Source: a virus
Length of the DNA stretch: 54,784 nucleotides
IMG/VR virus record: IMGVR_UViG_3300042197_004232
Location: 1-54,784 of that record
Reading direction: 5' to 3' (one strand)
Position numbers and translations under genes: made by a program. Shown here in pieces: positions 8,486 through 39,808 of the stretch (within the stretch, counting starts at the first letter, position 1; each line of letters begins with the position of its first letter). Below the pieces are notes generated by a model. It was given only the letters and a program-made list of their open reading frames with translations, was not told the origin of the DNA and ran no database searches.

Positions 8486-10045
8486 ATGAGCGTCGACAGC
8501 GCAGGCTACGTCACCGAAGTGGCGTATATGCCGGGGTTTTACGAATACATGGCGCCCACGGCGCTGCACTACGTTGCCGGCCTGAACGGTGCCACGCCGC
8601 CGAGCATCCAACAACCGTTCCGTTACCTCGAACTTGGCTGCGGCCTTGGGCAGACGTTTACGACGCTTGCCGCGGCTAATCCTGCCGGCCAATTCGTCGG
8701 CGTCGACGTCAACCCGGCGCACATCGACAGCGCCGATAAAGACATCAAAGCCGGCGGGCTGACAAACGCCAGCGCCGTCCTGTCTGATTTTGCCAGCCTG
8801 TCGCCCGACTACGGTGAGTTTGACTTTATCGGAGTTCACGGCGTCTTGAGTTGGGTCACGCCGGCGGTGCAGCACCAGTTGCTAAACGCTGTCGATCGGC
8901 ATCTTAAACCGGGCGGGCTGCTGCTCGTCAGCTACAACGCGCTTCCGGGCTGGGCGCAACTTTCGCCAATTCGCGAAATGATTCGCCAGTACGCCGCCAA
9001 AACCTCCGGGTCGCCGTTGGAAAAGATTGCCGGCGCGCTGAAGTACTTAGAGTACGTCAGCGGACGCAAAAGCGAATATTTTGCCAAAAATGACGCCGCT
9101 CGGCAGCATGTCCAACATTTGTTTAAAAGCGACCGACGGTATCTTGTGCACGAATACCTCAACGAGCATTGGCGCGCGTTTTACTTTCACGAAGTCGCCG
9201 CACTCTGCCGGCCATATGGGTTCCAATTTGCCGGAACGCTGCCGGCAGTCACGAACCACTGGGCCATGTGCGTCGCGCCCGAACTTCACGATTTGTTTGC
9301 CACCGCGGCCGACCGGGCCACCATCGAAACGCACAAAGACTTTTGCGCTAACTTTATGTTTCGCTGGGATATTTACAGCAAAAACGCTCTCCGCACACCG
9401 ACTGCCGTCGACCGTGTGCGCGCCGGCACAGACCTGTATTTTTCTCTAACGGAATTGCGCGTACCGTATCACGTGCACCTAGGCTGTGGCGCCGTCGAGA
9501 TCAAGGGACCAGAATATGAACTGCTGCAGCTAATCTTGACAGAAAAAAGTCGAACCCTGCCGGAACTCATCGCCGCGGCTGGATTACCGGAGGCGCAGTG
9601 GCCAACGTTGGTCCAGGCGCTCGACCGCGGAGTGGCCACAGGTTTTGTCAGCATAAGCGCGGCACCTATTCCTGCAAAGCAACCAATTAACGCCGCGACG
9701 ACATACACGTTCAGCCACGCGTACAATCGTGCTGCCGCACACAAATCGGCGTTCAGCGGTGAACACGCAGCCGTCGCCAGCCCGCTGACAAGAACAGGCC
9801 ACATACTCAAAGAATTTGACGCCGGCATAGTTACCGCTTTGGTCGAACACGGACCAGACAACCTGCCGCAAGCCGTCGCACGCCTTATGGCGACAAAAAA
9901 TCGAACGTTGAAGCAAAACGGCGTACCCGTCACCAACCCTGTCGCGCAGAACGCGATTATTCAATCAGCCTGCGCTGAATTTTTCAAAAAAGTGCTACCA
10001 GAACTGGTGCAACTTAACATTCTTCAACCGCACTCGGGCGCGTAA
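8486..10045 (+). CDS. SAM-dependent methyltransferase with regulatory domain
   Basis: A 519-residue protein with a GGAGG ribosome site. Residues 44-200 form a class I Rossmann methyltransferase: motif I YLELGCGLGQ at 48-56, the acidic ribose-binding Asp74 in FVGVDVNP, and the post-motif DFIGVHGVLSWV and LKPGGLLLVSYNALPGW. The rest matches the layout of the methyltransferase regulatory domain family (MethyTransf_Reg), known from bacterial surface-polysaccharide loci and some phages. The substrate is unknown. A role in modifying a sugar, host surface or phage product is inferred, and a DNA methylase is less likely as no DPPY-type motif is present. Confidence 0.85.
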   Translation: MSVDSAGYVTEVAYMPGFYEYMAPTALHYVAGLNGATPPSIQQPFRYLELGCGLGQTFTTLAAANPAGQFVGVDVNPAHIDSADKDIKAGGLTNASAVLSDFASLSPDYGEFDFIGVHGVLSWVTPAVQHQLLNAVDRHLKPGGLLLVSYNALPGWAQLSPIREMIRQYAAKTSGSPLEKIAGALKYLEYVSGRKSEYFAKNDAARQHVQHLFKSDRRYLVHEYLNEHWRAFYFHEVAALCRPYGFQFAGTLPAVTNHWAMCVAPELHDLFATAADRATIETHKDFCANFMFRWDIYSKNALRTPTAVDRVRAGTDLYFSLTELRVPYHVHLGCGAVEIKGPEYELLQLILTEKSRTLPELIAAAGLPEAQWPTLVQALDRGVATGFVSISAAPIPAKQPINAATTYTFSHAYNRAAAHKSAFSGEHAAVASPLTRTGHILKEFDAGIVTALVEHGPDNLPQAVARLMATKNRTLKQNGVPVTNPVAQNAIIQSACAEFFKKVLPELVQLNILQPHSGA

Positions 10046-15398: not shown

Positions 15399-15570
15399 CA
15401 ATTCAGTGGGCAGGCTGGTGCCCGTACTTGCAAAAACCGCTGCCTTCATCGGCGGTCCAGCACCCCAGTCGGCCGTGGGTTCGTAACGCCGAAGCCGACA
15501 ACATCTAAACTAAGAAGACTCCTACTGGGTGTGGGTCGGAAGTCGTCAATGCAAGGATGCAAGCGCGGAG
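15399..15570 (+). other. Non-coding stretch with nested hairpins before tRNA
   Basis: No start codon opens a credible gene here. Several stems can form: GGGCA/TGCCC (15408-15423), ACCGC/GCGGT (15436-15456) directly enclosed by GCTGG/CCAGC (15414-15418 with 15457-15461), and GTCGGC/GCCGAC (15468-15499) with an inner TTCG/CGAA. The first and third of these compete. This could be a tRNA leader, a small RNA or chance pairing. Confidence 0.35.
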
Positions 15571-15641
15571 TGCCCGATGGTGTAACGGTAGCACAAGGGA
15601 TTTTGGTTCCCTTTGTCTAGGTTCGAATCCTAGTCGGGCAT
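15571..15641 (+). tRNA. tRNA-Gln (anticodon TTG)
   Basis: A complete cloverleaf: acceptor TGCCCGA/TCGGGCA, D arm GTG/CAC with a TAACGGTAG loop, anticodon stem AGGGA/TCCCT with loop TTTTGGT (anticodon TTG, reads CAA/CAG), and T arm CTAGG/CCTAG with TTCGAAT. No CCA is encoded after the discriminator base, so the host must add it. It is the only tRNA I find in the window. Confidence 0.93.
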
Positions 15642-15675
15642 TGAATTGGTTTGGTTTTTATGGGGGGAGTAAACA

Positions 15676-24558: not shown

Positions 24559-27111
24559 ATGAGTTTTGCTGGCTACCCGGTCGTGATTCAGAAAACAGCC
24601 AATGTGCTCAAGATTACGGGCGCTGGCGGAACAGCCCTCAACCCTGATCTGATCAAGCATCTGACCAAGGGGCTGCATTACTCGCACGTCGAGCAGTTGC
24701 ACGGGCAGTCCCGCAAGAATCCAGTGACGGGGCAGCGGCTGTATTTTCAGACGCGCGAGTTCAAACTGTTTCGCGTCGAGAACGGCCACGTCGTCTTGTT
24801 GGCGGGTTACATGGCGCGGATGATCAACCGGCTGCGGAAACTGGGATGTAATTTTACGCTGGTGGATTCGACGCCTTCCCGCAAGCGAGAACAGTGCTAT
24901 ACGCCGCGCTGGGAAAATTTAGAAGGCAAAATCGAGTTTCGTCCGCGGCAGGAAGAATGCCTTCGGTTGCTTTCGCGAGTCCCGTGCGGGATTATCAAGG
25001 CCGTGACCGGGTTCGGGAAAGCCCAACCGATTACCGAAACGGTTTATACCGATATCGGGCCTATTCCAATTGGCGGCATTCAGGTCGGCGATTACGTTAT
25101 CGGTTCAAACGGTTATCCGACTGAAGTAACCGGCGTATATCCGCAAGGTGTCAAAGATATCGTTGAAGTCGAATTTTCTGACCGCACAAAAGTCAGGTGC
25201 TGCAAAGAACATTTGTGGAATGTTCGCACAAAAGCCCAAAAGCATCGAGACAAACCGTATCGCACTGTGCAGATTGCCGATATCGCAGACGACTTGTACG
25301 ACAATCAGGGTAACGCAAAATGGTTTGTGCCTGTTGTTGAACCTGTGCATTTCCGGCAACGAGTATTGCCGGTCGATCCGTATTTGCTCGGCGTATTGCT
25401 TGGCGACGGCGGTTTAACGCAGACGAGCATTCGATTCAGTTCTGCGGATCGAGAAATAGTCGATCGTGTGGACAGTCTTGTGCAACCGTTCGGCCTCTCC
25501 GTGCGCTATATTGCGCAGTATGACTGGGGCATAACGCACGGCATGAAAAATTTGGAAAATTCGCTTAAAAGGGCGCTGAATAAACTTGGTGTATGTGTCC
25601 TGTCGAAGGACAAAAAAATTCCAGACTGCTACAAGCATTCAAGTTATGAGCAGCGGTTAGAACTATTGCGCGGTTTAATGGACACAGACGGCACCATACG
25701 TAAAAATTGTTACCACGTTGAATTTGGTGCCGTAGCGTCCAAGCAGTTGGCCGAAGACGTCTGCGATCTTGTTCGCTCCTTGGGCGGCGTAACTCGCGTT
25801 AAAGAACAAACGTATACAGCGCAACCCGGCAAGACGTATTATCGCGTTGCCGTTAACTTGCCTGTAAATCCTTTTTGGTTGCCCAGAAAAGCCGATTTGT
25901 GGCGAAGCAAAACCAAACAAGGCAAAACAAAAGCGATTACGGCTGTACGCGCTGTCGGCCAAGAATCGTGCGTATGTATTTCCGTATCTGCGGAGGACGG
26001 GTTATATGTGACCAAAGATTACACAGTCACGCATAACACAACCCTCATCGGCGCGGCGTCACAATTGTTTCCTGACGCGCGCATCGACGTGGTTACCAAG
26101 AGCGTCGACGTGGCCGAGCGCATCGTGCGAAGTCTGCGGCGGTTTGTGCCGAAAGTCGGCATGATCGGCGACGGCTGGAAACAGCGTGAACGCGTCACGG
26201 TTATCACAGCGGGCAGTCTGCAGCACGCCGACGGCGAGGCTGACTTTATGTTTGCCGACGAAGTGCACCAACTGGCCACGATCAACTTTTCGACCGCGCT
26301 TGCCGCGCGGTACCGCAACTCTCGAAACTTTGGCCTGAGCGCCACGCCATACGCGCGCATGGACAATGCGCACGCCATTCTGGAGCCGCTTTTTGGCCCG
26401 ATGATTTTTGATCTGCCGTATCAGGAGGCTGTGGAACTTGGGCTGGTTGTACCTGTTCGTGTGAAGTGGCTGCCGATTCGTTTGCAGCACAATCCAGCCG
26501 AGCGGTATCGCAACAGAGTCGCACGAAAAAAACACGGCATCTGGACAAACTATGGTCGCAACAGTATGATCGCCGCCGCCGTGCGGGAGTATCCGGCAGA
26601 TCGCCAGATACTCATTCTCGTCGAGACGATCGAGCACGCCGTGCATCTGGGCTCGCTGCTGCCAGAGTTCACGCTCATGTACTCCAATATGATGCCGTCG
26701 GATTGCGCGGCGTATAAGCGGGCAAAGTTATTGCCGCAGGATTACACCCCGCTAACCAGTTTGCAGAAGCACGACATGCGGTCGGCGTTTGAAACCGGCA
26801 CGTTGCGCCGCGTCATCGCCACCGACGTGTGGGCGACCGGCGTAGACTTTGAACAGTTGAACGTCTTGGTTCGCGCCGATGACCGCGACAGCGATATCGT
26901 GGACGTACAGGGCCCCGGGCGTGTGAGTCGAACGTATACGGCACCTGACGGCACAGTAAAAGAATTTGGCGAAGTGATTGATTGCATGGACACATTTGAC
27001 CCGACGTTTTATCGCAAAAGCACGGGTCGGCGAGACAGTTACAAACTTCTCGGATGGGAGCAAAATTGGAATGAGGCTGCAAGAAGTTGGCGGTCTAGCG
27101 GAAGTCAATGA
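24559..27111 (+). CDS. SF2 DNA helicase (UvsW-like) with intein
   Basis: An 850-residue precursor; without its 339-residue intein the helicase is 511 residues. ATG 24559 directly follows the previous stop. The N-terminal 130 residues are a likely DNA-binding region (RENGHVVLLAGYMARMINRL). After FRPRQEECLRLL (Q-motif-like) the Walker A VTGFGK-TT is split by the intein. Then follow DEVH (near 567), SATP (near 594), TDVWATGVDF and QGPGRVSR (near 784). This order fits the UvsW/RadD type that unwinds branched DNA. It sits between end-processing and replication genes. Confidence 0.9.
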   Translation: MSFAGYPVVIQKTANVLKITGAGGTALNPDLIKHLTKGLHYSHVEQLHGQSRKNPVTGQRLYFQTREFKLFRVENGHVVLLAGYMARMINRLRKLGCNFTLVDSTPSRKREQCYTPRWENLEGKIEFRPRQEECLRLLSRVPCGIIKAVTGFGKAQPITETVYTDIGPIPIGGIQVGDYVIGSNGYPTEVTGVYPQGVKDIVEVEFSDRTKVRCCKEHLWNVRTKAQKHRDKPYRTVQIADIADDLYDNQGNAKWFVPVVEPVHFRQRVLPVDPYLLGVLLGDGGLTQTSIRFSSADREIVDRVDSLVQPFGLSVRYIAQYDWGITHGMKNLENSLKRALNKLGVCVLSKDKKIPDCYKHSSYEQRLELLRGLMDTDGTIRKNCYHVEFGAVASKQLAEDVCDLVRSLGGVTRVKEQTYTAQPGKTYYRVAVNLPVNPFWLPRKADLWRSKTKQGKTKAITAVRAVGQESCVCISVSAEDGLYVTKDYTVTHNTTLIGAASQLFPDARIDVVTKSVDVAERIVRSLRRFVPKVGMIGDGWKQRERVTVITAGSLQHADGEADFMFADEVHQLATINFSTALAARYRNSRNFGLSATPYARMDNAHAILEPLFGPMIFDLPYQEAVELGLVVPVRVKWLPIRLQHNPAERYRNRVARKKHGIWTNYGRNSMIAAAVREYPADRQILILVETIEHAVHLGSLLPEFTLMYSNMMPSDCAAYKRAKLLPQDYTPLTSLQKHDMRSAFETGTLRRVIATDVWATGVDFEQLNVLVRADDRDSDIVDVQGPGRVSRTYTAPDGTVKEFGEVIDCMDTFDPTFYRKSTGRRDSYKLLGWEQNWNEAARSWRSSGSQ
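25021..26037 (+). other. Class 3 intein with LAGLIDADG endonuclease
   Basis: It spans precursor residues 155-493 between Lys (GFGK) and Thr (TTLIG). It starts with Ala and ends in VTHN, with Thr as the +1 residue. Block B has HLW (His64, Trp66), block F CVCISV (Cys319 at position F:4) and block G Thr337-His338-Asn339, giving the Trp-Cys-Thr triplet of class 3 inteins. Two homing-endonuclease motifs, LLGVLLGDGG (from 122) and LLRGLMDTDG (ending near 222), lie in the middle. Splicing is needed to rebuild the ATP-binding loop. Confidence 0.9.
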
Positions 27112-38902: not shown

Positions 38903-39808
38903 ATGGCTCGCAAAAATTCAGCGACGGCTATCTTAGCCCAGCATTTTGACACGGATGCCGCAGCGGGTCAGCCAGAAACACGTCTGGCCGAGCACGCGAT
39001 GACCGACGAAATGCGCGATGTCGTGTCGGAGATTGACCAGATTTTCGGCGACGTGCAGGTTGCTAGTTTGACGGCGTTCTGGCGGGTTGGAAAGTTGATT
39101 ACGGACGTGAAGAACGCGCCCGAGCGGTATCTGACGCCGGAGCAGCAGGCTGCTCACGTTGACGGCGCATCGCTCATCATCGCGATTTTTGCGCCTGTGT
39201 ACACTGCCGACCAGTTGCGTAGCGCCGTTATGTTTTACGACCGGTACTCCAGCGAGGCCGACATTACCCGGCTGTTGTCGCTCCGAAACCCTGAGCGGCC
39301 GCGCTGGCGACTGACCGTGTCGCACGTACAGTTGTTGTCGCAGGTCGAGGACGAGGATAAGCGGCAGACGCTGGAAGAGCGGTGCGCCGAAGAGGCGATT
39401 ACTGCGCGGAACTTGTCATTAGAACTGCAGGAGATGCGCGGCAAGCAAAAGAATAGCGGCCGGACGCATCAGGCGCCCAAGGGGCTCAAGCAGCAGTTGA
39501 TGGACCTGTTGCAGCATCAGCGCCGGTTTATTGGTCGCTCAGAAAAACTTTGGCTGAACGAAAAAGAAGACAACATTTACGACGACATCGCAAATGCCGC
39601 CCCGGTCAGGATTGACACCACGGTGCGCAGTTATTTCGCCGAAATTCGCGAGAACTTCGACCGCATGTCCGACATGGTCGCCGATCATGTGGCGATGTGT
39701 CGGAAGATCGGCGAAGAAGTCATTGATCGCGACGACGAAGACGCCGAAGAGATTGACGACGAAACGGCCGGCACACGCAACAAGAAACAGTCTGATATCA
39801 CCCGCTGA
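38903..39808 (+). CDS. DUF1016_N-like (YhcG head) protein
   Basis: A 301-residue protein with AAGGAGG upstream. Residues 55-175 follow the pattern of the DUF1016 N-terminal winged helix: FWRVGKLITD, DQLRSAVMFYDRY, RWRLTVSHVQLLSQVEDEDKRQ and EEAITARNLSLELQEM (compare WxIGxxI, LRxMRxFY, LSWSHYxxLL, EGWSVRELxxxI). The PDDEXK nuclease half of YhcG is absent; instead there is a helical acidic C-terminus. It may bind DNA or partition/regulate, but this is inferred from fold similarity. Confidence 0.65.
   Translation: MARKNSATAILAQHFDTDAAAGQPETRLAEHAMTDEMRDVVSEIDQIFGDVQVASLTAFWRVGKLITDVKNAPERYLTPEQQAAHVDGASLIIAIFAPVYTADQLRSAVMFYDRYSSEADITRLLSLRNPERPRWRLTVSHVQLLSQVEDEDKRQTLEERCAEEAITARNLSLELQEMRGKQKNSGRTHQAPKGLKQQLMDLLQHQRRFIGRSEKLWLNEKEDNIYDDIANAAPVRIDTTVRSYFAEIRENFDRMSDMVADHVAMCRKIGEEVIDRDDEDAEEIDDETAGTRNKKQSDITR

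Follow-up and report, generated by a model that had tools for sequence, protein, structure and literature searches.

The window analysed here is a stretch of 54,784 nucleotides from a viral record (IMGVR_UViG_3300042197_004232), and the gene of interest lies at 24559-27111 on its plus strand, as do all the features described for it below. The gene is read as a single open frame from ATG to stop and encodes an 850-aa precursor, an SF2 helicase with an in-frame intein. The N-extein (24559-25020, 154 aa) ends with GFGK, one half of the Walker A motif. It is followed by the 339-aa intein (25021-26037, Ala1 to Asn339) and by the C-extein (26038-27108, 357 aa), which opens with the Thr-Thr of Walker A and carries the remaining helicase motifs. 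The intein sits between Lys154 and Thr494 of the precursor, GFGK/TT (the slash marks the splice point), flanked by AVTGFGK and TTLIGA, with precursor residue 155 (Ala) at 25021-25023 and residue 493 (Asn) at 26035-26037; the predicted spliced helicase has 511 aa. The start ATG stands 154 codons before the insertion site, likewise in the closest relatives (e.g., L008-L010 and L012-L014). Translation of the frame and its flanks confirmed to the base the coordinates, the intein length and the 511-aa product given in a first-pass annotation of this DNA.

The junctions could be placed with the help of natural alleles. The C-extein, used as query against viral contigs, found 37 loci, and in 33 of them GFGK reads straight into TT with no insert, while an intein ending in VTHN/TT was found at the same point in the other four. 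Natural alleles, and not motif guesses, thus set the splice points, a misplaced intein boundary is ruled out, and the earlier claim that the intein interrupts Walker A between Lys and Thr is borne out. The occupied loci L011, L021, L032 and L044 lie on the contigs that the intein search had found as L004, L002, L001 and L003, whose inteins share 93%, 76%, 81% and 73% identity, respectively, with that of the window.

The extein translation contains the SF2 motifs GFGK/TT, DEVH, SATP and QGPGRVSR. The window C-extein matched ResIII and Helicase_C weakly, XPBII with E = 2.7e-6, and the DNA helicase families phrog_16 and phrog_9690. ResIII and Helicase_C (Pfam) were present in 22/22 natural empty relatives, and the profile of these relatives had archaeal XPB (XPBII, E = 5.6e-13) as its best match and also found the phrog_16 DNA helicase. 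XPB was ranked above UvsW for the extein, and T4 UvsW (2oca) was among the fold matches (E = 5.9e-10) of a model of an empty homologue; this model is poor (pLDDT 61), so the fold ranking serves as support only. Sequence identity of the extein to XPB and T4 UvsW is low, about 14%. Judged from these matches, XPB/UvsW-type SF2 helicase is the safest name for the host protein, its subfamily being tentative because of the pLDDT of that model. The UvsW-like helicase of the first-pass annotation thus holds as regards SF2 and the XPB/UvsW group, while the best matches are to archaeal XPB, and UvsW came up only on the low-confidence model.

Genes for SbcC/SbcD-like proteins, a DnaB-like helicase, a DNA polymerase and a UvsX-like recombinase lie near the helicase gene, and by its gene content the neighbourhood reads as a module for replication and recombination of the phage. 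The source record is a virus fragment, and several relatives are found on contigs of 203-205 kb, which suggests a phage genome of about that size. With window positions 20000-44000 as query, a nucleotide search of cultured phages found nothing, so there is no close relative in that collection, and Pfam scans of 20 other ORFs of the window found no second intein. Elsewhere in the window, we noted a protein of 519 aa at 8486-10042 that combines a class I methyltransferase domain with a predicted methyltransferase regulatory domain (PF10119), a lone tRNA-Gln (TTG) gene at 15570-15642, and, at 38903-39805, a similarity to DUF1016_N that is weak (E 6.8e-6) and does not reach the Pfam cut-off.

The class of the intein was derived from its junctions and conserved blocks. 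Position 1, as placed by the empty alleles, is the non-nucleophilic Ala, which excludes a class 1 start, and the C-terminal junction is THN/T, a His-Asn end followed by a nucleophilic +1 Thr. The block B region (25180-25221) contains CCKEHLW with His64 (B:10) and Trp66 (B:12); Cys319 (F:4), the putative initiating nucleophile, is encoded at 25975-25977; and block G (26029-26040) brings together Thr337 (G:5), His338, Asn339 and the +1 Thr. Among 63 distinct intein homologues collected from viral contigs, His64, Cys319, Thr337, His338 and Asn339 are invariant (63/63), while Thr stands at +1 in 58 of them and Ser in the other 5. Trp66 is kept in 62/63, as is the joint Trp-Cys-Thr (WCT) set, a count that is partly biased for Trp66 because one of the search patterns contained Trp, whereas Cys319 and Thr337 were in no search pattern. 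Residues 155-493 matched LAGLIDADG_3 with E = 1.2e-11 and Hint weakly, and intein-containing NCBI families were among the best matches. PDB profile matches were obtained to the gp41-1 intein with an engineered WCT set (6riz, 2.6e-21), PI-SceI (9e-21), and the class 3 DnaB inteins 6rix and 6bs8 (2.8e-16, 4e-16). The WCT positions align with those of 6riz, and CCKEHLW aligns with its EHLW. Chance resemblance is ruled out by the profile matches, the fold and the homologues.

An intein beginning with Ala might also be sought in class 2, as KlbA-like inteins begin in this way and let the +1 residue attack the N-terminal junction directly, without a block F intermediate. Class 2 inteins are, however, KlbA orthologues with Ser at G:6, Cys at +1 and Asp at F:4 (PMC4031507), whereas here these positions are His, Thr and Cys, in addition to Trp at B:12 and Thr at G:5. 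Class 2 is excluded on these grounds, and we give it a next to negligible chance. At the level of sequence, 25021-26037 has every feature that defines class 3, and the residues named in the first-pass annotation (W66, C319, T337, H338, N339 and Thr+1) stand where it had put them.

The AlphaFold model of the intein, built from an alignment of 44 sequences, comprises Hint and endonuclease parts with high confidence (pLDDT 94.3, pTM 0.92); such a model gives the fold and is no test of catalysis. It was superposed on PI-SceI with Z 27.3 over 322-332 residues, covering residues 1-339. Among endonuclease-free inteins the class 3 intein of M. smegmatis DnaB (6bs8) came first, with Z 20.0 and an rmsd of 1.5 over 123 residues; next were 6riy/6rix (Z 19.5), and class 1 mini-inteins reached Z 18 at most.

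Two LAGLIDADG motifs are nested in the intein, LLGVLLGDG in block C (25384-25410, intein residues 122-130) and LLRGLMDTDG in block E (25663-25692, residues 215-224). Asp129 and Asp223 align with the PI-SceI motifs LLGLWIGDG and FLAGLIDSDG, so that both motifs, as claimed earlier, are intact with both catalytic Asp accounted for. Comparison of the window with its occupied relative L004 gave dN 0.042 and dS 0.84 for the intein, dN 0.053 and dS 0.77 for the endonuclease part, and dS 1.9-2.4 for the exteins. Identity at fourfold sites was 0.64 (0.56-0.72) for the intein and 0.43 (0.35-0.51) for the C-extein, intervals that do not overlap. From the dN/dS values and the fourfold-site identities, the intein, including its endonuclease part, is judged to be under purifying selection and, in this pair, to be younger than its host gene.

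These values bear on the reading that the insert is a relic which no longer splices and leaves the helicase inactive. Precedents exist: one pseudogene of a class 3 intein is on record (PMC3196547), and in one relative (L117, 3001-4049) the intein has in-frame stops, from a frameshift, in its C-terminal part, possibly a decaying copy or a sequencing error. In the window, however, no catalytic residue is lost, the frame is uninterrupted, the intein shows a dN/dS of about 0.05, and purifying selection acts on the C-extein too, which leaves the relic a very slim chance.

Evidence for movement came from the close relatives. L001 and L003 share 91% of their DNA positions across the C-extein and 96% in the stretch downstream, against no more than 68% within the intein, and a tree uniting their two inteins was rejected (p-AU 8e-7). 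One of the two phages thus had its intein replaced, and we regard the intein as exchanged between closely related phages on the strength of these comparisons. The five intein carriers require five changes on the extein tree, no fewer than with shuffled labels; this scatter also fits repeated loss, while the replacement and the age results argue for transfer. Scattered over the extein tree and exchanged between close phages, the intein looks mobile, and selection, age, replacement and scatter together would fit homing between co-infecting phages. It might still be that the insert splices but has lost its cutting activity, and that it passes on by vertical descent or, where it moves, by ordinary recombination alone; a sequence cannot demonstrate endonuclease activity. 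Yet both catalytic Asp positions are intact, dN/dS of the endonuclease part is about 0.07, the distribution is scattered, and the recent replacement and transfer are limited to the intein, so a silent endonuclease seems unlikely.

Taken together, we assign a probability of about 0.95 to the reading that a full-length intein of class 3, consisting of a Hint splicing domain and a homing endonuclease of the LAGLIDADG type nested in it, interrupts Walker A in an SF2 helicase of XPB/UvsW type from a phage, with splicing and homing as the presumed activities of the intein. In such a mechanism, the Lys154-Ala1 peptide bond would be attacked by Cys319, which would form the catalytic triad together with His64 and Thr337, Trp66 belonging to this site as well; the product would be the branched thioester of block F. 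From there the N-extein would pass to the hydroxyl of Thr+1, Asn339 would cyclise, and GFGK would be joined to TT by an acyl shift, so that the 511-aa helicase regains its ATP-binding loop. The freed intein would act as a homing endonuclease that cuts intein-free GFGK/TT helicase alleles of co-infecting phages, into which the intein would then be copied. Splicing itself, DNA cleavage and the order of these steps are what we infer; sequence, junctions, family membership, predicted fold, conservation, selection and horizontal exchange are read from the data.

The codons at the insertion site may hold a further trace. All five intein-bearing alleles read GGG TTY GGN AAA / ACA (window 25003-25020 and 26038-26055; L008-L044), and the third-codon bases of GGG, AAA and ACA are shared by 5/5 occupied alleles versus 2/28 distinct empty alleles. 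Clade-matched draws gave P of about 0.009 when the six codons around the site were counted and of 0.08 when twelve were; with these values, and having been picked after looking, the pattern is only suggestive. It may represent target preference, co-converted flanks or nothing.

How common is such an element? The first-pass annotation considered a class 3 intein in a phage helicase P-loop uncommon and perhaps new, and this does not hold. In 6/6 annotated cultured-phage genes examined (Vibrio phage 424E50-1, PhiPA3, Colt, Domovoi, LucasX and BS-TP3), an intein with W, C and T lies at GK/T or GK/S. These six resemble the window intein in having both LAGLIDADG motifs and 31-39% identity over the matched stretch and differ in their host P-loop proteins, which are unrelated or distant, most records saying only 'helicase'; residue 1 of the Domovoi intein is Met rather than Ala. 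Two class 3 inteins at such junctions are laboratory-tested, those of Deinococcus radiodurans Snf2 (DraSnf2) and M. smegmatis DnaB1 (Msm DnaB1), whose cloning primers (PMC7664689), translated by eye, read GK/A...THN/T or S. DraSnf2, likened here by its junctions, shares with the window class 3, Ala1-Gln2, the GK/T position in an SF2 helicase, the THN/T junction and a nested endonuclease domain, its host being a bacterial Snf2 protein. The Mycobacterium DnaB1 inteins (Msm 6bs8, Mch 6rix/6riy) are also class 3 with WCT but lie in DnaB, measure about 140 residues in the solved chains and have no endonuclease, and Msm DnaB1 has the same GK/A junction, followed at the other end by THN/S, i.e., Ser+1. 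PI-SceI, the yeast VMA1 intein, has the same Hint plus two-motif LAGLIDADG endonuclease and matches the fold over the whole length; unlike the window intein, it is class 1 (Cys1), has 454 aa and resides in another host protein. Insertion between Lys and Thr of the P-loop has even been termed 'classic' (PMC5050341), and class 3 inteins at GK/T or GK/S are common in phages and bacteria, with many phage helicase, DnaB and terminase genes among the hosts.

What is new, accordingly, is the host protein and the uncultured phage lineage, in a kind of element already known, and existing knowledge of inteins is left unchanged. The value of the locus lies mainly in its use as a tractable homing system. 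It provides a clean full-length class 3 example with natural empty alleles, and since empty and occupied phages are close and show signs of recent exchange, it offers a convenient system for P-loop homing and for class 3 splicing with Thr+1.

The residues preceding the intein in the homologues are mostly GK, and the hosts, named from their translations, include PhoH-like (L005) and SbcC-like (L006) proteins. It is conceivable, though on balance doubtful, that one class 3 lineage colonised the GK/T or GK/S codons of many unrelated P-loop NTPases, its endonuclease reading a short core DNA motif common to Walker A codons; the shared wobble bases would then be a trace of target choice or of flanking-DNA copying during homing. 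The related class 3 intein in the SbcC-like gene (L006, 6001-6990) lies at GVGK/TT and retains W, C and T, but of its LAGLIDADG motifs only the degenerate forms LACGS and FNDARGE are left, for which reason its endonuclease is probably dead. In the mycobacterial and Gordonia PhoH-like genes (L126-L130, 2501-3577), a related intein is found at MRGR/TLN, outside the P-loop, and their own P-loop GTGKT is uninterrupted.
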